The notes under the pieces are model-generated. The model had not been told where the DNA came from, did not search any database, and saw only the letters and a program-made list of their open reading frames with translations. A DNA stretch of 45,128 nucleotides from positions 1 to 45,128 of the IMG/VR virus record IMGVR_UViG_3300030329_004565; one strand, 5' to 3'. This DNA comes from a virus. The translations under genes and the position numbers were made by a program. Shown one piece after another: positions 1-45,128 of this stretch. Every line of letters begins with the position of its first letter. The first letter of the stretch is position 1.

Positions 1-108
1 GTGACTCCCTTACGCAATAAGTGCAGGGTGCATGCACATGGGTCAAAACCATGCAGAAAGGTCATGATCTCCCCGATCCCGTGACATTTTGGCAACTTTG
101 ATCACCAT
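1..108. repeat. Terminal direct repeat, left copy
   Basis: These 108 bases recur at 45021-45128 with only two substitutions, at positions 78 (C versus T) and 102 (T versus A). The repeat either is the overlap of a circular or circularly permuted assembly or is part of a genuine direct terminal repeat that the contig truncates. An assembler k-mer overlap would normally be identical, so the mismatches suggest population variation or two real copies. No gene lies in it. Confidence 0.9.
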
Positions 109-132
109 GAACCCCGCCATTCTGTCAACGCA

Positions 133-313
133 CGCGTACGCGCACGCATGAGCCCCCACAACCGACGGACTGCGCCCCATTGACAATATGCGTCAATTCA
201 AAACAAGAGCACCGCTCTCCATGTGACGCTATGTGTCACTTGCCTATGACAAGGTTTGTCACATAACCCGATGAATGACCATATATGGCACCATACATTT
301 ACGAAATGTGTCA
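133..313. promoter_or_regulatory. Palindrome cluster: operator-like control region
   Basis: A run of inverted repeats lies in 180 gene-free bases. Three share one geometry, five-base arms around seven bases: TTGAC-N7-GTCAA at 180-196, GTGAC-N7-GTCAC at 223-239 and ATGAC-N7-GTCAC at 246-262 (the last with one arm mismatch). Others are CGCGTACGCG at 133-142, CCATATATGG at 279-288 and ACATTT-ACG-AAATGT at 295-309. This is what a set of dimeric-repressor operators or an origin would look like. No convincing -35/-10 pair was found; the TTGACA at 180 lacks a -10 box at normal spacing. The role is inferred from position upstream of the rightward operon. Confidence 0.55.
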
Positions 314-403
314 TCTGCAAGCGCCTGATATCATTGCCCTTTTCACTTTTATGCGATGAACTGGCACAAGTGGCATGGGGTCTGCATTGTACTAGAGCAG
401 GAA

Positions 404-560
404 GCGGGGAACCTCGAACGGGGTCGGTCTCCACCTAGGGTGTAGAGTCGAGACGTTCCTAGGGTTCCCCCTTCCAGTTCGACGCGGGTTCGCTCGCGTA
501 TGGACCGGCACAAGCCGCGCATGAGTGTACCTCCGTCAAGGCCCCTGCTCGCAGGATGTC
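404..560 (+). ncRNA. Foldable 5' leader, candidate structured RNA
   Basis: The gene-free leader before the first rightward gene can fold strongly. GGGGAACC at 406-413 pairs with GGTTCCCC at 463-470. TCGA at 414-417 stacks on it and pairs with TCGA at 448-451, leaving an 11-base bulge. Inside, 428-435 and 439-446 form a hairpin with a TAG loop and one mismatch. Two smaller hairpins follow: CGGC-ACAA-GCCG at 506-517 and CCTG-CTCG-CAGG at 544-555. No open frame here looks like protein. It could be a leader RNA, attenuator or small RNA; only the base pairing is seen. Bases 561-686 hold nothing I can identify except the ribosome binding site of the next gene. Confidence 0.35.
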
Positions 561-686
561 GCCGGGAGGGAGTCGGGAGACTTGGCACGTCGGAAGGGAT
601 TGCGCGGGGAGTGTTCGCATACATAGGTTCTGAAATGGGCCGTTAGGTTGTTCGCGTAGGGTCCGCGTCCTCTATCGGAGGGCGCT

Positions 687-1280
687 ATGGGAAACGGAAG
701 GACGGCGAAGAGACGGGCTCGAAAGAACCGACTCCGAGCACACCGACAAGCCGCGAGGCGCTTTTGTAGCGCTTCCGGCATTCGAGACCTGGACCCGGAC
801 CGTGACGATGTCTTGCGTGTTCCGCATGTCAAGACGGAAGCACAGTCCAGACGAGACGACGCCCGAGCCGCACGCCTGGCAGACATTGCCAGTGCGCGGG
901 AGACTCGAAGGGACCGCGACGGTGCCAAGGGTCCACGGGATGAACGTCTCTTGAACCGCGCAATCGCCACGCAATCGGGCCCCGTGATTCATACCCATGG
1001 GGACACACATTGCGATTGGCCACGGGAGAAACGCTCCCCGGTCACGCGCATGTCCCCCGATAGTCGTTCCCGCGAGGGATGGACACTGCGTGACAAGCGC
1101 AAACGCGAAGAGAGCAAGAGCAAACCCGCTCGGAAGCGCCGCAAGGTTTCGGCACGGAAGGGGAAGCGCAAGACCGCGAAGGTTGAAGCGCCTATCTTCC
1201 GCACGCTAAGTGAGGCCGAGATTGCAGCACGGGAGCGGGACCGCAAGTCCGCAAAGAAGCGGGCGATTTCAACCTGGTAG
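687..1280 (+). CDS. Basic protein, unknown function, first gene of the rightward operon
   Basis: This 197-residue product is extremely rich in Arg and Lys, especially residues 1-80 and 135-197, with a K/R run in the last third (SARKGKRKTAK). The start is an ATG with GGAGG five bases upstream. It resembles no enzyme family I know; the charge suggests nucleic-acid binding. As the first rightward gene it would be among the earliest expressed. An ORF of 279 codons lies on the opposite strand (989-1828), but it would run against the operon and has no neighbours in that direction. Confidence 0.6.
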   Translation: MGNGRTAKRRARKNRLRAHRQAARRFCSASGIRDLDPDRDDVLRVPHVKTEAQSRRDDARAARLADIASARETRRDRDGAKGPRDERLLNRAIATQSGPVIHTHGDTHCDWPREKRSPVTRMSPDSRSREGWTLRDKRKREESKSKPARKRRKVSARKGKRKTAKVEAPIFRTLSEAEIAARERDRKSAKKRAISTW

Positions 1281-1330
1281 GAATACCAGCGGGCGCGGGC
1301 TCTACGCGAACAATCCAACGGAGGTTTCAA

Positions 1331-1681
1331 ATGACTGTTCAATTTGAGAATGTGGCCGTCCTCACGACGTCGGACATTCAGTCGTATCTTAGCCGTGGCT
1401 CTGGTTTGAGTACCACGGGACGACTTGAGTACGCCGTCTCGCAGGGTTTCGACGTTCACGTTGTATCCACACGAGACACGGTTGTGCCTGCGTCGGATGC
1501 GTGGTGGATGGCTATCGTCAAACCGGAGCGTGGGTGCTCGGGGGAGTTGAAGCCCCAGTCGTGGATGGCGGCACGGGAGAGGCTGCGCGAACTGGGAATC
1601 AGGACCGGGCGGGTGGTCCGGGAAGAGATGAAGGCCAGCGGATGGACGCTGGACGAATGGACCGGGACGAATGCCCGATAG
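1331..1681 (+). CDS. Hypothetical early protein, 116 aa
   Basis: The ATG start has a strong GGAGGTTTCAA ribosome binding site. The product is soluble, with a beta-rich middle (DVHVVSTRDTVVPASDAWWM) and a helical, charged C-terminal half. I do not recognise the family. It lies 50 bases after the first gene and 9 bases before the next, in the same direction. Codon use and spacing fit a real early phage gene; no function can be proposed. Confidence 0.7.
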   Translation: MTVQFENVAVLTTSDIQSYLSRGSGLSTTGRLEYAVSQGFDVHVVSTRDTVVPASDAWWMAIVKPERGCSGELKPQSWMAARERLRELGIRTGRVVREEMKASGWTLDEWTGTNAR

Positions 1682-1690
1682 GAGGAGTGA

Positions 1691-1819
1691 ATGAGGAAGA
1701 ATGGAGCAGACCACCTGCGTGACATTCGCGAGGCGAAGGAGCGCAAGGAACAGAAGCACTATGCCAAGACAATTGAAAGGCTGCGCCTCAAGTGGGGCGC
1801 GAGGGGAGCGGGGGCATGA
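1691..1819 (+). CDS. Small charged helical protein, 42 aa
   Basis: This short frame begins at an ATG directly after GGAGGAGTGA, the same junction sequence seen before other genes of this block. The product is almost entirely charged helix (RDIREAKERKEQKHYAKTIERL). Its last bases overlap the next start as ATGA, which supports translation. The function is unknown. Confidence 0.55.
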   Translation: MRKNGADHLRDIREAKERKEQKHYAKTIERLRLKWGARGAGA

Positions 1820-1881
1820 TTGAAGCATGGAGCGTGCTGGTGGTGGCGATGTTGACTAGTGGCGCATGGGGGAAGCGATGA
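1816..1881 (+). CDS. Micro-ORF, 21 aa
   Basis: A 21-codon frame begins in an ATGA overlap with the previous stop and ends in another ATGA overlap with the next start. The product MIEAWSVLVVAMLTSGAWGK is hydrophobic in the middle and could insert in a membrane. Support comes only from the double coupling; it may simply be a re-initiation bridge. Confidence 0.3.
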   Translation: MIEAWSVLVVAMLTSGAWGKR

Positions 1882-1964
1882 GTGATGCATTGTGTGACGT
1901 GTTCGGGTCGGTTGCTGTGATGGTGGCCGTCTTTGGCATGGCCCTGTGGTGGGGCGTTTGGTAG
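1878..1964 (+). CDS. Small single-pass membrane peptide, 28 aa
   Basis: It starts in an ATGA overlap. Residues 8-28 form one hydrophobic stretch (VFGSVAVMVAVFGMALWWGV) long enough to span a membrane, ending in aromatic residues and a stop. Tiny inner-membrane peptides are common among phage early genes. No function can be assigned. Confidence 0.4.
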   Translation: MSDALCDVFGSVAVMVAVFGMALWWGVW

Positions 1965-1972
1965 GGGGCGGC

Positions 1973-2203
1973 ATGCAATTGAAGGTGAGTGAAGCGGTGC
2001 GGGTGGCAGTGGAGAAAACGCGGGGCCACAAGGACGCGTGCCCGTGTCGCGAGTGCGATGCTGCATGGAAGGGAATTGACACTCTTGACTTGGGAGAGGT
2101 GTTGGATGGAGGAGCAACCGACGTTTGGGATGGTTCACGTTGGGGGGCGGGACTTCCCGGCATGGACTCCACACGCACGGAACCTGTTGGTCAGGGCAAG
2201 TGA
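1973..2203 (+). CDS. Hypothetical protein with CPCREC motif, 76 aa
   Basis: The ATG follows a purine-rich TAGGGGGCGGC. The N-terminal 45 residues look like a real domain: a helix (SEAVRVAVEKTRGHKD), then CPCREC that may bind metal, then a charged helix. The remaining 30 residues overlap the next gene in another frame and are G/D-rich. Either the two genes overlap by 98 bases or only the first part is meaningful. A frameshift joining it to the next frame is possible but there is no slippery site I can point to. Confidence 0.45.
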   Translation: MQLKVSEAVRVAVEKTRGHKDACPCRECDAAWKGIDTLDLGEVLDGGATDVWDGSRWGAGLPGMDSTRTEPVGQGK

Positions 2204-2345
2204 GTTGCCACGAGACTGGGTGGACATTGTGATTGAAGCGCTGACGGAGAATAGGACTTTCCGTTGTGAGATGGAGCGCACGCGCATGCCGGTGACGGAC
2301 TTCGACAGGCGCATGCAGGAACTAGCAAAGCGATACGGAGGATGA
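2106..2345 (+). CDS. Hypothetical early protein, 79 aa
   Basis: It starts at an ATG inside the preceding gene, behind GGGAGAGGTGTTGG. The product has an amphipathic helix (PRDWVDIVIEALTENRTF) and a charged C-terminus (DRRMQELAKRYGG). Its stop TGA is immediately followed by the next ATG, so the pair is translationally coupled. The family is not recognised. Confidence 0.6.
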   Translation: MEEQPTFGMVHVGGRDFPAWTPHARNLLVRASELPRDWVDIVIEALTENRTFRCEMERTRMPVTDFDRRMQELAKRYGG

Positions 2346-2573
2346 ATGACTGAGGTACAGCTTGATGCAATCAAGCGGCTTGTGCTGCGGTACAAGTCGG
2401 ACATGGAATACACGGACGTGGTGTATGACCGTGACGGGACGGGCGTTGCAGGCCTACCGCCTGGGTGGGTGTTGGTGAATGTGTGCCGACCGGAGAAGGG
2501 AAAGGCTCCGCACCTGTGCAATGACATCATCATACAGGCCGGGGTTTCCCCGGAGGGGAGCGTTCACACCTAG
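2346..2573 (+). CDS. Hypothetical early protein, 75 aa
   Basis: The ATG directly abuts the previous stop, and GGAGG lies within the end of the upstream gene. The product has an N-terminal helix (LDAIKRLVLRYKSD) and a beta-rich second half containing CRPEKGKAPHLCND, with two Cys residues. There is no match to a family I know. A GAGGAGGA site follows for the next gene. Confidence 0.65.
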   Translation: MTEVQLDAIKRLVLRYKSDMEYTDVVYDRDGTGVAGLPPGWVLVNVCRPEKGKAPHLCNDIIIQAGVSPEGSVHT

Positions 2574-2583
2574 AGGAGGATGA

Positions 2584-3186
2584 ATGGAGATTTCAATTAC
2601 ACCGATGGCTGCCGGAAGGCACTTCGGCAGCAACCCCGAGTTTGCGGGGACAAAGATTGGCAACGGGATTGGACCGGGGGAGTTCATCTCCAGGCTAAAG
2701 GAGACTGTGCGGGAGATGTCCGACGGGCTCGGATGGGAGCCGGAAGACCTCCTCGTTGAGGGGTACGCGCCGTTCTGCAAGCACTTGTTCGTCCTGAACT
2801 GGACCGGGTGCCTGTCGGGCGGGGTGCCTATCACGGACGAGAACAGGCACCTGCTTCGCACGGAGTACAAGGCAAGGCGACCGACCGAGCTTCCAGTGCT
2901 CAAGAGGTACTTCTCATCCGATGATGTGGAGGTTCCCGAGGCACGCGTCCTCGATGTGATTCTCTACACGACCGAGCAGTTGAGGGTCGAAGGGAAGGAG
3001 ATTGAGGGGGATTGGGCGATTGTGTCAATCAATGGGCAGATGGCCCACACTGAATCGCCAATGTGTCCCGCCACCCTGTTCCGCAATGCCCTTGGAGTGG
3101 ACGAAGGGGGGTCGGGAGTGGCGCTTGACCGTGAGAAGTACGCAGAGAGCGTCGAGTATTGGAGCCAGTTTGCCACTGTGAAGTAG
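2584..3186 (+). CDS. DUF3228 family protein
   Basis: The 200-residue product carries the hallmarks of the bacterial DUF3228 family at about the family's usual length: GCLSGGVPITDENRHLL near residues 79-95, then RRPTELPVLKRYF, then PMCPATLFRNALGVDEGGSG near 160-178, and a closing VEYWSQFATV. DUF3228 proteins are conserved but have no established biochemical role. It has a GAGGAGGATGA ribosome binding site and ATG, inside a run of small unknown early genes. Presence of a whole cellular-type family member in a phage suggests acquisition from a bacterium. Confidence 0.85.
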   Translation: MEISITPMAAGRHFGSNPEFAGTKIGNGIGPGEFISRLKETVREMSDGLGWEPEDLLVEGYAPFCKHLFVLNWTGCLSGGVPITDENRHLLRTEYKARRPTELPVLKRYFSSDDVEVPEARVLDVILYTTEQLRVEGKEIEGDWAIVSINGQMAHTESPMCPATLFRNALGVDEGGSGVALDREKYAESVEYWSQFATVK

Positions 3187-3201
3187 TGGCAGGGAGGATG
3201 G

Positions 3202-3501
3202 ATGAAGATTCGAGTGGACTATGAGATTCCAGACGGGGTGATTAGTGACGCAATCCTCAACGGGCTGGAGTGCGGGATTGTCCGCTGGTGCGATGAGTAC
3301 GAGGACGTGGGAGGGGCGATTCTCTTGACCACTGTACGAGGCGAGGAGCACGCGCTGACCCGTGAGAAAATCAAGGAGGGGATTCGCGTGCTTGCGACGA
3401 AGTACCCCTACCATTTCAACGACCTGATTCGGCGGGCGGGGGACAGTGACACCTCCGACGCGCTCATTCAGTGCGCCCTGTTCGGGAAGGAGGTTTATTG
3501 A
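3202..3501 (+). CDS. Hypothetical phage protein, 99 aa
   Basis: The ATG has GGGAGGATGG before it. The product is a compact alpha/beta domain: a strand (MKIRVDYEIPDGVISDAILN), a mixed middle with WCDEYEDVGG, then a helix (TREKIKEGIRVLATKYPYHF) and a C-terminal helix with SDALIQCALFGKEVY. Similar small proteins ending in a DALIQ/ALFGE-like segment occur in many phages, but I know of no demonstrated function. Its stop overlaps the next start as TGATG. Confidence 0.75.
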   Translation: MKIRVDYEIPDGVISDAILNGLECGIVRWCDEYEDVGGAILLTTVRGEEHALTREKIKEGIRVLATKYPYHFNDLIRRAGDSDTSDALIQCALFGKEVY

Positions 3502-3746
3502 TGGAATACAACGGCCACAAGAACTGGAACCACTGGAATGTGTACACCTGGCTCACTGGCAATGAGGGGCTGCACAGGATGGCCCGATGGAATGTGGACC
3601 ACTGTCGGACTCTGGACGAGGCGGCGGCCAAGACATACCGAACCCTGTGGGGCCTGGCTCCGCTGGGGGAAAAGCCGCACACACCCGACGGGGCACCGTA
3701 CACGGTCACGTCGATTCGCGCCGCCCTGGTGGGGTGGAAAGATTGA
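3501..3746 (+). CDS. Small conserved phage protein (NGHKNWNHWNV type), 81 aa
   Basis: It starts in a TGATG overlap behind GGAGGTTTATT. The N-terminus EYNGHKNWNHWNVYTWLTG is typical of a widespread family of small phage and plasmid proteins that begin with 'YNGxxNWxxWNV'. No activity is known. Residues 35-81 contain a helix (RTLDEAAAKTYRTLWG) and a loop rich in Gly and Pro. Confidence 0.7.
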   Translation: MEYNGHKNWNHWNVYTWLTGNEGLHRMARWNVDHCRTLDEAAAKTYRTLWGLAPLGEKPHTPDGAPYTVTSIRAALVGWKD

Positions 3747-3766
3747 GTGAACCAACAGGAGGAGGC

Positions 3767-3970
3767 ATGAAAGAGAAGCAAATGGTGGACCTGGCAATTG
3801 AGATTCTCCAGTCCATGCAGGATGGCGTGGGCGTGTGCCATGCGTGCGGGGAGGAGGCCTCCGGTGTCAACGGATGGGCCGAGCCAGACGCGCGCCGGTA
3901 CGAGTGCGAGTGCTGTGGAGAGCGTGCCGTCTATGGCGCAGAAGAAACACTTGTCATGCTTGCTGGATAG
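3767..3970 (+). CDS. Zinc-ribbon-like small protein, 67 aa
   Basis: The ATG has AGGAGGAGGC before it. After a helix (DLAIEILQSMQDG) there are two cysteine pairs, CHAC at residues 24-27 and CECC at about 47-50, spaced as in a four-cysteine zinc ribbon. Such proteins usually bind nucleic acid or a protein partner. The target is unknown. Confidence 0.65.
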   Translation: MKEKQMVDLAIEILQSMQDGVGVCHACGEEASGVNGWAEPDARRYECECCGERAVYGAEETLVMLAG

Positions 3971-3980
3971 GGAGGAGTGA

Positions 3981-4139
3981 ATGTGGAAACAAAGGATTGT
4001 GATTGAGTTGACCACGGACGCGGACCCTTCGCAGTTGCTGGACGAGGCAATCGAATTCGGACAACGCCTGGTCGAGGAGCACGGCGGGGAATTCGACGAC
4101 GACGACGCGTGTGTTGGGGATGCCAAGGGGGATGCGTGA
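3981..4139 (+). CDS. Small acidic protein, 52 aa
   Basis: The start follows GGGAGGAGTGA. The product has a strand (QRIVIELTTDAD), a helix (QLLDEAIEFGQRLVEEHGG) and an acidic run FDDDDA. It ends in GDAKGDA, a tail shared with the 46-aa gene at 4653-4793 through a 17-base identical DNA segment. Its stop overlaps the next GTG start as GTGA. Confidence 0.55.
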   Translation: MWKQRIVIELTTDADPSQLLDEAIEFGQRLVEEHGGEFDDDDACVGDAKGDA

Positions 4140-4378
4140 GGTTCAATGTGGGCGATGTTGTCAGTGTCCGGTTCGGGCATCTGGATGGATACGTGCGGCA
4201 TCGCGAGCATCGTCAGTATCTCCCCTTCCGGGGTGAGATTCTTTCCATTCGCTACCGTAGCGATGGCTCGATTGGGAGCGCCAGCTTCCGCCGGGTGTGG
4301 ACTGACGGCGATGGCGATGCGGTGTCTGAGGTAGTCGCCGACTGCCACGATGTGGTGCTGACGAAGGAGGATGAATGA
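4136..4378 (+). CDS. SH3-like small protein, 80 aa
   Basis: The chosen start is the GTG in a GTGA overlap, preceded by AAGGGGGAT. The product begins RFNVGDVVSVRFGHLDGYV and continues with beta-strand material (GEILSIRYRS, ASFRRVWTDGDG). This pattern resembles small SH3-fold barrels, though the family is not recognised. The stop overlaps the next ATG. Confidence 0.6.
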   Translation: MRFNVGDVVSVRFGHLDGYVRHREHRQYLPFRGEILSIRYRSDGSIGSASFRRVWTDGDGDAVSEVVADCHDVVLTKEDE

Positions 4379-4656
4379 ATGGCGGTGAGTCCAAGCCAAA
4401 AGACAGAAAGCGACTCGCCCGTGCGGTGAAAGCGGCGCGGAAGGTTCGTCACCTATGGTCCGACAAGGCCATTGATGAGGGGTGGAGCCCATTCCCGATG
4501 GAGGTGTGGGCAATTGTTCGGGTCCACGAGGAGATTACCTGGGGCAGGGGCTGGAGGCGTTGGCATCGGGGGCGAGTGTGGCGGCGATACCTCAGGGAAA
4601 TGACTTGTCCGTCGTCAGGGGAGACTCTGTTCTACAACACGTGGGAGGCTGAATGA
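4375..4656 (+). CDS. Basic hypothetical protein, 93 aa
   Basis: It starts in an ATGA overlap with GAAGGAGG upstream. Residues 8-25 are strongly basic (KDRKRLARAVKAARKVRH). The middle and C-terminus are rich in Trp and Arg (WGRGWRRWHRGRVWRRYL). The composition suggests contact with nucleic acid or membrane. The family is not recognised. Confidence 0.6.
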   Translation: MNGGESKPKDRKRLARAVKAARKVRHLWSDKAIDEGWSPFPMEVWAIVRVHEEITWGRGWRRWHRGRVWRRYLREMTCPSSGETLFYNTWEAE

Positions 4657-4793
4657 GGTTGGTCAAAGAGTTCCTGACTGAGGCGGATGCCATGGCGTAT
4701 TGCGATGAGCACCCGAGCAGGAATCTGTTCGTTGAGCCTGCGCTGGGGGGTGTGTTCGAGGTGTGGGACATGGATGCCAAGGGGGATGGATGA
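4653..4793 (+). CDS. Small hypothetical protein, 46 aa
   Basis: The start is in an ATGA overlap. The product reads as one strand-helix-strand unit (VKEFLTEADAMAYCDEH, then NLFVEPALGGVFEVWD) and ends MDAKGDG, the same tail as the 52-aa gene upstream. Its stop overlaps the next ATG. Confidence 0.5.
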   Translation: MRLVKEFLTEADAMAYCDEHPSRNLFVEPALGGVFEVWDMDAKGDG

Positions 4794-4963
4794 GTGAGGA
4801 GCGGGGCCTGATACTGGCGCACTGCATTCCGCATGTGTGCAGGCGGGGGTTTTGCAGCGAGAAGCACGGGCCGGGGATGCTGGAATTCCCATCCATGATT
4901 TTCGTTGAGGCAACCCAAATCACAAAAGAGGCGGACCCGGCAGGGCCGCACTCTCCCGACTGA
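4790..4963 (+). CDS. Small Cys/His-containing protein, 57 aa
   Basis: The start overlaps the previous stop (ATGGATGA context). The product contains HCIPHVCRRGFCSEKH, three Cys and three His in 16 residues, which may coordinate metal. The rest is without recognisable motifs. Confidence rests on coupling and continuity of the operon. Confidence 0.5.
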   Translation: MSEERGLILAHCIPHVCRRGFCSEKHGPGMLEFPSMIFVEATQITKEADPAGPHSPD

Positions 4964-4999
4964 CAATATCACTGGCTCAGTTGGGCCAACAAATGGGGG

Positions 5000-5143
5000 A
5001 TGGGTGAGTATTCATTTGAAGACCTTGCGAGTCGCTCCGCTCAGGACTTCCCCAACCCCGACCACGTCGCAACCGACTGCGCCGAGGACGACGAGGGCTC
5101 GGTCCAGACGACGCTGATACGAAGGCAACAGGAGGGCGAATGA
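5000..5143 (+). CDS. Small acidic protein, 47 aa
   Basis: This short frame follows AAATGGGGG and ends in an ATGA overlap with a well-supported downstream gene. The product is acidic in the middle (CAEDDEGS) and ends IRRQQEGE. The overlap supports translation; no function is evident. Confidence 0.45.
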   Translation: MGEYSFEDLASRSAQDFPNPDHVATDCAEDDEGSVQTTLIRRQQEGE

Positions 5144-5862
5144 CAATCAAAGCATGGGAAGGGCCATCCACCGTGAACGGAGCGACCGTCATGTTGGGTG
5201 TGTCATGCGAAGACAGACCATCGAAGAACAAGAAGACCGGCCCGATGGTACAGGTGGGGGTGCTGGTCAAGGATGAGCATCCGGTGGAGGCCGTGCGGAG
5301 CGGGGGTGACGTTGCCGTGTGCAAGTTCTGCCCGCTGCGGCCAAGCCTGCACAAGGAGGCGAAGGAAAAGGGCGAAGAGGTGGCCGAGTTCCCCTGCTAC
5401 GTGCTCCCGTACAGGATGAGCGCTCAATACAAGGCGCTGCTTCCGATGGGGGCGGACTTCGAGAGGGCAAGGGATGCGCTGACAGGGAAGCGGGTGCGGT
5501 TCGGCTCGTATGGCAACGGGTCGAGCGTGCCGAGAGATGTGCTTGAGCCACTGCTCAAGGCACCGAAGATGCACACCCTGTACGAGCACGACTGGCGCAA
5601 CCCGGACAACCAGTGGATGGCGAAGTATGCGATGGCGTCCGTGCATTCCCCCGAAGAGAGGGAGGAGGCAAGGGCGCTTGGGTTCAGGACATTCCGTACG
5701 GATGATGAGGTGGGTGAGGGGGAGATACTGTGTCTCTTTGACTCACACAAAATCCAATGTGTGGACTGTGGTTTGTGCAATGGAAGCAATGCGTTGGAGG
5801 ATGGCGTTGTTGACTGGGGCAGGGAGCCTCGGAAAGACATCGTGATTCCCTCGCACAGGTAA
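5140..5862 (+). CDS. Conserved cysteine-rich phage protein (DUF7227-like)
   Basis: The 240-residue product has the layout of a common phage family: KTGPMVQVGVLVKDEHPVEA with SGGDVAVCKFCPLRPS near residues 55-70, then FPCYVLP, then VRFGSYGNGSSVPRDV near 120, YEHDWR, MASVHSPEE, GFRTFR and a final VDCGLCNG. The spaced cysteines (CKFC, FPC, CVDCGLC) suggest a metal or iron-sulfur site. I recall the family as DUF7227, but the exact name would need a search. The N-terminal half opens with a substrate-like 'not yet known' domain. It starts in an ATGA overlap behind AGGAGGGCGA and stands alone as the largest gene among the small ones. Confidence 0.75.
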   Translation: MTIKAWEGPSTVNGATVMLGVSCEDRPSKNKKTGPMVQVGVLVKDEHPVEAVRSGGDVAVCKFCPLRPSLHKEAKEKGEEVAEFPCYVLPYRMSAQYKALLPMGADFERARDALTGKRVRFGSYGNGSSVPRDVLEPLLKAPKMHTLYEHDWRNPDNQWMAKYAMASVHSPEEREEARALGFRTFRTDDEVGEGEILCLFDSHKIQCVDCGLCNGSNALEDGVVDWGREPRKDIVIPSHR

Positions 5863-5871
5863 GGAGGAGAG

Positions 5872-6186
5872 ATGGGACAGACAAGAACAATTCAAAGCCG
5901 CATTCATGCTCAAGGCATGTATGAGAACGCGATGTTGTACGACCGGCACTCGTGGCAGCGGGGGACGCATGCGGAGTTGACCGCAACCCTCGCAGTCGGA
6001 GGGCTGGACGTGGCACCGGGTCCGCTGATGCGGAAGCAGGATGCGGATGACCTGGCGGCGCGGATGACTGCGCTGGGGAGCCTGTTCAAGGTGGACAAGC
6101 CGACCCTTCGCAAGATTGCGGAGGGCAAGGTGGCCCCGCAGTTCACTGAGGATGGGTTCAATGTCATTGGGTTCGAGGAGGTGTGA
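5872..6186 (+). CDS. Hypothetical protein, 104 aa
   Basis: The start has AAGGAGGAGAG immediately before ATG. The product is mostly helical, with a charged segment (RKQDADDLAARMTALGS) and a C-terminal part (PTLRKIAEGKVAPQFTEDGF). I see no family. Its stop overlaps the following start as TGATG. Confidence 0.65.
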   Translation: MGQTRTIQSRIHAQGMYENAMLYDRHSWQRGTHAELTATLAVGGLDVAPGPLMRKQDADDLAARMTALGSLFKVDKPTLRKIAEGKVAPQFTEDGFNVIGFEEV

Positions 6187-6494
6187 TGCGTCCTCCGACA
6201 GAAGAGAGGGGAGAAACGCTGTACGACATCGAGCTTCCGGGGTTCACCCTGCGTGAGTACGGATGGAGGGTTCTGAAGTACGACCATGGTGTTGTGCTTG
6301 CGAGGCTCATCCATGAGGAGTTCGTCGAGTACGGAACATGGGAGCCCAATCATGACGGGAGCCTTCTTGTCAGCGGGGACTATGTCTTCGGGCCGTTGGG
6401 CACGGAGGTTCCAGAGGGCGTGCTGGTGGATTTCGCCAGGCGTGCGAAAGGGTGGGCTCGGCGGCGCTTCCGCGAGGTTGAAAGGGGGGAGTGA
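6186..6494 (+). CDS. Hypothetical protein, 102 aa
   Basis: It starts in a TGATG overlap behind GAGGAGGTG. The first 70 residues are beta-rich (LYDIELPGFTLREYGWRVLK, HGVVLARLIHEE). The C-terminus is a basic helix (FARRAKGWARRRFREVERG). The family is not recognised. It is one of five consecutive genes joined by TGATG overlaps, so their levels are probably coupled. Confidence 0.65.
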   Translation: MRPPTEERGETLYDIELPGFTLREYGWRVLKYDHGVVLARLIHEEFVEYGTWEPNHDGSLLVSGDYVFGPLGTEVPEGVLVDFARRAKGWARRRFREVERGE

Positions 6495-6853
6495 TGGGGG
6501 ATGACAACTACGGGCTGACAGAGGTCGTCCCGGAGAACACGATTGCGTGGTGGGGTGCCCGGTGCAACTACGACCGGCGGTCCTACTGGGGGCCGGGGCT
6601 GGACATCAGCATTCACCTCAACGCATGGCATGGGGAGGAGGGGGACATCAAGCGCCTGAAGTACTACTGGTCCGAGGCCAGGAAGGATGTGTTCGGGGCG
6701 TTTGATGCACTGCTTCATGAGAGTGAGTACGGAAACAGCATCGAGCCCGGGGTGCACGTCCTGCATGAGGACGACATCATCAAGGTGGCCGGTGCAGCAA
6801 GGGGCGACTACTTCTACGTGTCGGCGTGGATGAAGACGCCATGGGAGGAGTGA
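6494..6853 (+). CDS. Hypothetical protein, 119 aa
   Basis: The start is in a TGATG overlap behind GGGGGGAG. The product is acidic and aromatic (TIAWWGARCNYDRRSYWGPG, KYYWSEARKDVFGAFD). It shares the acidic, Trp/Tyr-rich character of the 116-aa product at 7128-7478. No motif points to a function. Confidence 0.65.
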   Translation: MGDDNYGLTEVVPENTIAWWGARCNYDRRSYWGPGLDISIHLNAWHGEEGDIKRLKYYWSEARKDVFGAFDALLHESEYGNSIEPGVHVLHEDDIIKVAGAARGDYFYVSAWMKTPWEE

Positions 6854-7128
6854 TGACGACAGTTTCTTTTGCGGTTCCTGTGACCCTGTGGGTTGACGTG
6901 GAGTTGAGGCTTGACCCATGCACGGAAGAGGATGCCCTTGAGTTTGCGCAAGCTGCGCTGGATGAGGGGCACATCCTTGAGGTGGATGGGAACAAGGGTT
7001 CGGTTTGGGTGAATGATTGCTTGATTGTTCCCGGTGAGGTTCAGTTTGAGGACCACTTCGAGAACGTGATTGGCCAGGAGTTGAGTGGGTTTGTCCGGGT
7101 GTACGACGCACTGCCCGAGGAGGAGTGA
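6853..7128 (+). CDS. Hypothetical acidic protein, 91 aa
   Basis: The start is in a TGATG overlap behind GGGAGGAG. The product is a small alpha/beta domain: strand (VSFAVPVTLWVDVELRL), helix (TEEDALEFAQAALDEG), strand (VWVNDCLIV), acidic C-terminus. The family is not recognised. Confidence 0.65.
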   Translation: MTTVSFAVPVTLWVDVELRLDPCTEEDALEFAQAALDEGHILEVDGNKGSVWVNDCLIVPGEVQFEDHFENVIGQELSGFVRVYDALPEEE

Positions 7129-7478
7129 TGGGATACTACTTGAGGCAATGCGACGAGTCCGACCCCGAGCCCCACCCCGGTCAGCCGCCATGCGGACACG
7201 AGTCGTGCAACGATGTGTGGAGTGACCTCAACTACGGAGAGAAGCTCGAAGACTGGGGAGATGGGGAGTGTGTCGAGGTGTACAGGTGGGAGGTCCACAT
7301 TGGAATCGGCAAGCACGATTGGGATGACCACCCCGACCACCCCGATTGCTTCGAGGGCACGTTCGATGAGGCGAAGGAGTTCTTCAAGTCGGTCAAGGGC
7401 AAGTCGCGCATGTGGCCCGAGGAAGAGCCGGCGCAGAAGGAGTCGAACGAGGACCTGTTCCTCTTCAAAGAGGAGTGA
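7128..7478 (+). CDS. Hypothetical acidic protein, 116 aa
   Basis: It starts in a TGATG overlap behind GAGGAGG. It is rich in Asp, Glu, His and Pro, with a Cys/His group near the N-terminus (PPCGHESCND) and HDWDDHPDHPDC in the middle, which could bind metal. The last third is charged helix. Its stop overlaps a GTG that opens the next frame. Confidence 0.65.
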   Translation: MGYYLRQCDESDPEPHPGQPPCGHESCNDVWSDLNYGEKLEDWGDGECVEVYRWEVHIGIGKHDWDDHPDHPDCFEGTFDEAKEFFKSVKGKSRMWPEEEPAQKESNEDLFLFKEE

Positions 7479-7750
7479 GATTCGGTTTGGTCCAGTGCGG
7501 CGAGCCCCTGCGGGGGCGATCAGCCAGGGTGTCAATGTTGTCTGACGGCAGGTGCCGGTCGTGCTGGGTCAATCATATCAGGAGGGGTGATGAAGCGGAG
7601 GAGAATCGGATACGGGAAAGACGGCAGGTGGTGGAACGGGAAAAGGACAAGGAAATGGCACAAGAAGCTGAGGCTCAACCAGATACTCCACATTCAATAC
7701 ACCACAAAAACGGGCTCTCTTGCGCAGTTCAAGGAGAACCTTGCGTTTGA
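7475..7750 (+). CDS. Small zinc-finger-like protein, 91 aa, overlapping the next gene
   Basis: The GTG start sits in a GTGA overlap behind AAAGAGGA. The N-terminus contains CGEPLRGRSARVSML and GRCRSCW (residues 8-31), the style of small phage zinc-finger proteins, although one expected Cys is missing. A charged helix (EENRIRERRQVVEREKDKE) follows. The last 54 residues overlap the gene at 7590 out of phase by 161 bases. The same DNA has a GCCCC-TGCG-GGGGC hairpin at 7505-7518. It may be a real overlapping gene or a remnant. Confidence 0.45.
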   Translation: MRFGLVQCGEPLRGRSARVSMLSDGRCRSCWVNHIRRGDEAEENRIRERRQVVEREKDKEMAQEAEAQPDTPHSIHHKNGLSCAVQGEPCV

Positions 7751-7937
7751 GGACGAGTTCTTGGCAAGCCGCACCCCACGTCGCAGCAAACACGGGCGGC
7801 AGGGCATTGGGGAGTCGTGCTGGGAGTGCCATGAGATCGCAGAAAGGCTGGGCATTGTGCGCGGGAAGGCGCTGACAATGGGCGAGATGGAGCGAGATGC
7901 CGCACGCCGTCTTGAGTTCATGATTGAGGAGGAGTGA
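7590..7937 (+). CDS. Hypothetical protein, 115 aa
   Basis: The ATG has AGGAGGGGTG just upstream. The N-terminus is strongly basic (KRRRIGYGKDGRWWNGKRTR). A CWEC motif sits near residue 75 and the C-terminus is an acidic helix (RDAARRLEFMIEEE). The stop overlaps the next ATG as TGATG. I do not recognise the family. Confidence 0.65.
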   Translation: MKRRRIGYGKDGRWWNGKRTRKWHKKLRLNQILHIQYTTKTGSLAQFKENLAFEDEFLASRTPRRSKHGRQGIGESCWECHEIAERLGIVRGKALTMGEMERDAARRLEFMIEEE

Positions 7938-8422
7938 TGCCATATCTACTGCTGGCCAAGAGGGCACTGAAGAAAAGAGAAGTTGACTGGATGAACAGGC
8001 ACAACGTGCGGTGCGGCCATGCAGCATGGCTGACCGTTGCGGCCACAAACTTGCGCGTCGCAGTCAAAGATGAGGACTTTAGCGCAGTGCGGGTGGATGA
8101 GGCATTCCTCATTGGGATGCGCACCGCAATGAGCGCATCAGTTGAGACACATCTGGACAGGATACACAAGACGGTGATGTCTGGTGCAGAGTTGACCGGG
8201 CATCTTCGGGAGAGCCTTGTGCGCAGGATTGCAATGCTTCAAGAGGTGTCACCTGATGCAGCCCTGGTGTCTGCGCTTGGTGATTACCTAGCCATCATTG
8301 GAGAGGCACCCGCAAGGGATGCGGATGACCCGATGACTGCGGGGCACATGGTGCTGGGGATGGACCCTTTGTCGGTACAAACCTTCATTTTGGGGCTTGC
8401 AAAGCAGAATGTGAGTCAGTAG
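7937..8422 (+). CDS. Hypothetical helical protein, 161 aa
   Basis: It starts in a TGATG overlap behind GAGGAG. The product is almost all helix (SASVETHLDRIHKTVM, LRESLVRRIAMLQEV, AALVSALGDYLAII) and looks like a helical bundle. No family or catalytic motif is recognisable. It ends 42 bases before the ribbon-helix-helix-like gene. Confidence 0.65.
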   Translation: MPYLLLAKRALKKREVDWMNRHNVRCGHAAWLTVAATNLRVAVKDEDFSAVRVDEAFLIGMRTAMSASVETHLDRIHKTVMSGAELTGHLRESLVRRIAMLQEVSPDAALVSALGDYLAIIGEAPARDADDPMTAGHMVLGMDPLSVQTFILGLAKQNVSQ

Positions 8423-44691: not shown

Positions 44692-44742
44692 CACACCCTC
44701 CTCGGTGTAGAGCCAACTCGCATGGCCCATTCACATCGCAAC

Positions 44743-44768
44743 TTGACAGATCAATCCCACCCTGTCAA
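44743..44768. promoter_or_regulatory. Inverted repeat TTGACAG-N12-CTGTCAA upstream of the late operon
   Basis: Seven-base perfect arms flank 12 bases, 52 bases upstream of the first leftward start. The inner half-sites TTGAC and GTCAA equal those of the palindrome at 180-196 on the other side of the control region. It may be an operator for the late promoter. No matching -10 box is visible. Confidence 0.45.
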
Positions 44769-44797
44769 CATCCCCCCTACAACCCCCCTAAAGACAT

Positions 44798-45020
44798 TAA
44801 CTATATATATATATAATTAATACCTCGTACTCTATATAGTTATGTATAGATGTAGTTATATCCCTTTAGGGATAATAAACCTTCAGACCATGAAACTAAT
44901 GTGCCAAAGCATTGACCACACACCCTGGCGGGATGTGGTAAGGGTTGAAAACAAACAAAAAGCAGGGGAGAGGGAAACAACATCTCTCTTGAATATAGGC
45001 GGTGGGGGTATATGCCACAG
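44798..45020. promoter_or_regulatory. AT-rich tract with inverted repeats (origin or promoter candidate)
   Basis: Bases 44791-44880 are far more AT-rich than the rest. TAACTATATA (44798-44807) and TATATAGTTA (44833-44842) are perfect ten-base inverted arms. A TATAAT lies at 44812-44817 on the + strand, without a -35. TATCCC-TTTA-GGGATA (44859-44874) is a second perfect hairpin, and TAGTTAT recurs between them (44837-44843 and 44853-44859). It is easy-to-melt DNA between divergent operons, as at many phage origins. Bases 44881-45020 hold no gene or recognisable signal. Confidence 0.5.
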
Positions 45021-45128
45021 GTGACTCCCTTACGCAATAAGTGCAGGGTGCATGCACATGGGTCAAAACCATGCAGAAAGGTCATGATCTCCCCGATTCC
45101 GTGACATTTTGGCAACTTTGAACACCAT
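45021..45128. repeat. Terminal direct repeat, right copy
   Basis: This is the second copy of bases 1-108, with T at 45098 and A at 45122 in place of C and T. The contig stops within the repeat, so whether the similarity continues is unseen. Joining the copies makes the control region continuous from 44692 through 686. Confidence 0.9.

Follow-up and report, generated by a model that had tools for sequence, protein, structure and literature searches.

PilR is the response regulator that turns on the type IV pilin gene, and for activators of the NtrC family, looping and ATP-driven promoter opening are established. The usual assumption is that early promoters of phages are read either by a phage polymerase or with the housekeeping sigma factor. 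The pilin gene depends on sigma-54 and PilR in Xylella (PMC3224663) and, according to PMC6058289, which cites Jin 1994, in Pseudomonas; the PilR sites of P. aeruginosa have been described as TGT-N11-AGA and GTCT elements (PMC6058289). For NmpR, whose site is GCGCA-N5-TGCGC, activator dimers bind two or more spaced dyads (PMC11841059). A study of pilus phages has raised the point that phage replication may require PilR activation (PMC13170266). Searches of the open-access literature did not turn up any description of phage promoters that depend on PilR. Here, we describe a palindromic array in a phage genome that is likely an upstream activating sequence for a host PilR-type sigma-54 activator, serving a sigma-54 early promoter.

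The junction between the divergent arms

The window (the whole stretch of viral DNA analyzed, 45,128 nucleotides) is a podovirus-like, circularly assembled genome. The ends of the record share 108 bp, of which the first 77 are identical before the first mismatch. A 77-bp end overlap is also present in the record of a relative (L022), where it lies inside coding DNA; on this ground, the end overlap of the window is attributed to assembly, and the map is taken to be circular. A physical terminus at the record start, which carries a conserved box (GTAAGGGNGNCACC, 45020-45034, also 1-14), was rejected, the 77-bp overlaps in the window and L022 being assembly overlaps. The genes are arranged in two divergent arms (Table 1), and the dyads lie within the junction of ~980 bp between them (44731-45020 plus 1-686). 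Relatives of the terminase were found at 59-72% identity in viral contigs, and none were found in bacterial genomes in the host search. The product of the first long early open frame had no family match, no sigma-70 promoters were found in positions 1-1500, and neither an Rfam search nor a distant blastn of positions 1-8000 against phages gave matches.

The junction also holds an alternating purine-pyrimidine tract of 23 bp (128-150, ACGCACGCGTACGCGCACGCATG). Of the relatives with sequence at this place, most keep a tract of 18-23 bp in the junction; outside it, such tracts in these genomes reach at most 14 bp. The GTAAGGGNGNCACC box always comes after this tract, is conserved in most relatives, where it precedes the terminase genes, and is a candidate packaging (cos/pac) or origin element. 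A repeat, TGNCCATATATGGYRCCATACRTTT, occurs once in the window (276-297) and in 2-4 copies in L010:105-150, L012:1630-1680, and L038:277-330, and a terminator-like sequence, CCGACATAATTGCAGGGGGTGTTTTTT, is conserved before the late genes in the junctions of L011, L012, L014, L015, L016, and L038.

Table 1. Features of the window that bear on the palindromic array (positions are those of the window)
Feature	Position	Strand	Sequence or motif	Description
Dyad 1	181-195		TGACAATATGCGTCA	TGAC-N7-GTCA; flanks widen to ATTGAC...GTCAAT; proposed upstream activator site
Dyad 2	224-238		TGACGCTATGTGTCA	GTGAC-N7-GTCAC; proposed upstream activator site
Dyad 3	247-261		TGACAAGGTTTGTCA	TGACA-N5-TGTCA; proposed upstream activator site
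Degenerate copy	276-290		TGACCATATATGGCA	15-bp geometry kept; one core mismatch
Degenerate copy	299-313		TTACGAAATGTGTCA	One core mismatch
Predicted sigma-54 -24/-12 promoter	371-386	+	TGGCATGGGGTCTGCA	TGGCAT-GGGGT-CTGCA; points to early genes
Predicted transcript start and leader RNA hairpin	395-480	+		Start at ~397, placed from the -12 element
First long early open frame after the promoter	687-1280	+		197 aa, basic
Early arm		+		Cas4-like nuclease, SSB, DnaB-type helicase
Terminase, portal, and structural arm		-

A palindromic array upstream of a predicted sigma-54 promoter

The first-pass annotation had reported three palindromes of one geometry at 180-262, and they are present exactly as it claimed. 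The three TGAC-N7-GTCA dyads are the sole matches across the 45,128-bp record; the coding DNA of this genome, where a similar density had been named as a ground for doubt, contains no other copies. With the two degenerate copies included, the start-to-start spacings are 43, 23, 29, and 23. The density of TGAC/GTCA peaks genome-wide at the array (7 in the 100 bp from position 181). The second-densest cluster of the genome (8415-8515) overlaps the start of the 8465-8854 gene, the product of which resembles a ribbon-helix-helix (RHH) protein at its C-terminus and is tentatively taken to be one. When four-base dyads of any kind were allowed, provided that they contained three or more different letters, with spacers of 0-20, three copies in 81 bp arose in 1 of 2,000 shuffles of the 976-bp junction and in 1 of 60 shuffled genomes. 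The dyad cluster in the window is beyond chance. The annotation had also proposed cooperative binding by a dimeric protein, which agrees in outline with the single geometry, the roughly helical spacing (23/43 bp), and the location in a control region.

Downstream of the array lies the predicted sigma-54 promoter (Table 1), which scores 14.5 of 15.5 on a matrix written from the known consensus, not trained, and is the top sigma-54-like site of the whole 45-kb genome; a score like this is expected 0.006 times per shuffled 700-bp stretch. The site has GG and GC at -24 and -12 with 10 bp between them in the context TGGCAC-N5-TTGCW, from which it departs at two points (TGGCAT and CTGCA). Upstream, in the transcribed orientation, the array ends 110 bp before the promoter and a degenerate copy 58 bp before it, the gap of 110 bp from dyad 3 being toward the long end of the observed 32-172. 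The predicted transcript start coincides with the base of a leader hairpin (-58 kcal/mol for 385-500, z -5.1 versus shuffles). At the level of the DNA sequence, then, an array, a sigma-54 motif, and their spacing and orientation can be recognized, and the promoter is presumably used. No PF00158 (sigma-54 activator) domain was found in the window record, and a search of 29 phage records gave one weak match. Because the window phage and the array-bearing phages generally lack this domain, the activator should be that of the host.

Relatives of the phage

The exact array is absent from the junctions of all relatives; within the family, only this phage has its geometry. In clade A (L004, L007, and L027), which has the closest 10480, 12470, and SSB proteins in common with the window, the junctions carry clusters of TGACA/TGTCA half-sites at a different spacing, and those of clade B carry other repeats. 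The product of the 12470-13048 gene, which directly precedes the gene for the DnaB-type helicase, is a winged-helix protein and probably a replication initiator or loader.

No sigma-54 motif was found at the junction of the closest clade relatives (L004, L007, and L027). Across the family, 7 sigma-54 sites with scores of at least 14.5 (that of the window included) fall in the 12.3 kb of junction sequence and none in 190 kb elsewhere. Near-perfect sites are present at the junction in L010, L012, L022, and L038, all of which are without the array of the window, and the family as a whole may use sigma-54, with enhancers that differ between its members. These near-perfect promoters point leftward (L010:500, L012:1974, L022:1955, and L038:664) and are followed by TAATAATATA-type AT-rich DNA.

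Arrays in other viral contigs and in bacterial chromosomes

Beyond the family, IMG/VR viral contigs were searched for three TGAC-N7-GTCA dyads with gaps of 3-33, and arrays of three or more dyads were found in at least 119 stretches, compared with about 0.1-0.2 expected by chance according to our own estimate. Absence from relatives, which the first-pass annotation had held against a functional array, is therefore true of its own family and is overturned by this wider survey. About half of the stretches are coding repeats; arrays within long open frames (L201, L206, L211, L213, L217, and others) have spacings of 24, 36, or 48, corresponding to short-period protein repeats. The controls, kept separate, were the coding arrays, whose spacings are multiples of 12, and the tandem repeats found in chromosomes. 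The non-coding arrays, about forty among the matches listed, consist of sites that differ from each other, with the consensus GTGAC-[A/G]-AT-rich-[T/C]-GTCAC and a spacing of mostly 18-24 bp or about 43 bp. One of them (L205) has the spacing of the window (43, 23), and dyad 1 of the window matches the non-coding phage arrays in geometry and in its inner A/G...C/T positions. A 138-kb viral contig (L210/L229, G021) holds at least four separate arrays (at 12.1, 19.7, 32.9, and 39.4 kb), as would a regulon. The array was not found in F116 or DMS3, which we take to be pilus-dependent Pseudomonas phages, nor in BUCT708, ZP6, UAntarctica, or a Manatee Spring podovirus. DMS3, which is without the array, is one of the phages tested in PMC13170266.

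In bacterial chromosomes, non-tandem arrays are mostly found upstream of type IV pilin genes. Those of L335/L434, L363, L378, L388, L435, and L436 stand 140-190 bp upstream of pilin genes with GFTLIELMIVVAIIG-type N-termini, which is the position of PilR sites, and the array of the window has the site geometry seen at these pilin-gene enhancers. When 369 genomes were searched without selection for a pair of dyads with TGGCAC after them, two matches were returned (L435 and L436), both directly upstream of pilin genes. A more stringent pair pattern, applied to 110 genomes of the order, matched only the Cupriavidus pilin array already known. Among the genomes in which pilin genes are preceded by this layout of dyads and a -24/-12 promoter are those of Cupriavidus and Thioalkalivibrio.

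Since pilin is the classic target of PilR and sigma-54, sigma-54 promoters were sought beside the arrays. Among the matches listed, 24 of the 39 distinct non-coding viral arrays have such a promoter 15-200 bp away in the enhancer orientation, 2 of the 39 have one in the opposite orientation, and for 15 of the 39 the threshold applied gave no sigma-54 motif. A promoter accompanies only 1 of 27 coding arrays and 2 of 73 chromosomal tandem repeats (Fisher P about 1e-6 to 1e-7 for non-coding arrays versus controls), and many of the array-linked motifs score 15.1-15.5 of 15.5. The arrays are, in statistical terms, associated both with sigma-54 promoters and with pilin genes. The genes flanking the phage arrays are very diverse (small terminase subunit, capsid, primase, and others), and no recurrent regulator or repressor family was found among them. 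Because the array adjoins sigma-54 promoters in many unrelated phages and no repressor family recurs beside it, it is read as an enhancer, that is, an activator site, rather than an operator switch or replication iterons, and the suggestion of a genetic switch or origin in the original annotation was not borne out.

The dyads could nevertheless be operators of a phage dimeric regulator acting over the early promoter, with the RHH-like 8465 product or the winged-helix 10480 or 12470 products as candidates. They are clustered near divergent transcription units; the 8465 product, with its RHH-like features, is conserved in every relative that has this part of the early arm (41-52% identity); and TGACA/TGTCA enrichment tracks the clade with the closest 10480/12470 proteins. 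However, no homologues of the three proteins were found near other phage arrays, the flanking genes hold no recurrent regulator family, and the sigma-54 and pilin associations would be left unexplained, making such operators unlikely. The 8465 product was rejected as the cognate binder, as its relatives at 41-51% identity are found in phages that lack the array and none of its homologues was found near other arrays; a host enhancer-binding protein is a better candidate. An immunity region of the lambda type (CI/Cro) was rejected as well, since no HTH repressor recurs beside the arrays.

An origin with replication iterons in the junction would fit the location of the junction at the minimum of the cumulative GC skew, its AT-rich tract (44800-44826), and the lineage-specific repeats of the relatives. 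On the other hand, the GC skew tracks the divergent gene arms, and elsewhere the array goes with correctly oriented sigma-54 promoters (in phages) and pilin promoters (in chromosomes), not with origins; we consider iterons very improbable.

The sigma-54 evidence would fit equally well if the array were bound by some different sigma-54 activator of the host, or by a paralogue of PilR that serves another function. There are also two exceptions: in L387 the scanned range contains no sigma-54 motif, and L364 has no pilin-like gene nearby; the array motif may therefore serve more than one activator. However, pilin genes follow the non-tandem chromosomal arrays found beside a sigma-54 motif, and a different activator at the window array appears rather improbable.

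Proposed mechanism and implications

If the array is bound by a PilR-type activator of the host, dimers of this protein would occupy the three dyads, loop to sigma-54 RNA polymerase at the -24/-12 promoter, and open it through ATP hydrolysis. Transcription would begin near 397 and continue across the structured leader to the early genes (from 687). PilR binding, looping, ATP-driven opening, and the early timing are suggested here by analogy. As no sigma-54 activator domain is encoded by the phage, the early promoter would work only where the pilus regulator of the host is active, and the host of this phage presumably carries PilR and type IV pili.

More broadly, the chances seem about even that a broad, taxonomically mixed set of tailed phages has independently tied early or packaging-side promoters to the host pilus regulator and sigma-54, which would make phage gene expression depend on the state of the type IV pilus programme of the host, with promoters possibly firing only in piliated, host-capable cells. 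If a recurrent class of phage promoters requires sigma-54 together with a two-component regulator of the host, infection would be coupled to a developmental signal of the host. For such promoters, the DNA by itself would allow the host range to be predicted, as hosts that have both PilR and RpoN, and there would be a further reason, besides receptor loss, for the phage resistance of pilR or rpoN mutants.

Comparison with known systems

The operators OR1-3 of lambda resemble the window in having three dyads of one geometry between divergent genes in a control region. They differ in that the window has no divergent repressor and Cro genes beside its dyads, no CI/Cro-like gene having been found there or beside the other arrays, and in that a predicted sigma-54 promoter lies downstream. 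Enhancers of the NtrC family, such as that of NmpR, share with the window at least two spaced dyads placed ahead of a sigma-54 promoter, although the NmpR sites differ from the window dyads in core and spacer (PMC11841059). The PilR sites of P. aeruginosa as published also differ in string from TGAC-N7-GTCA (PMC6058289). The layout is also like that of the PilR/sigma-54 pilA promoters of Pseudomonadota, where, as in the window, a -24/-12 promoter comes some tens of bp after tandem TGAC-N7-GTCA dyads; in contrast to these, the window array belongs to a phage genome, where it would drive phage early genes through probable PilR binding. A sigma-54 enhancer with its promoter is a classical arrangement; a phage would be an unexpected owner of one, and the arrangement recurs across phages.
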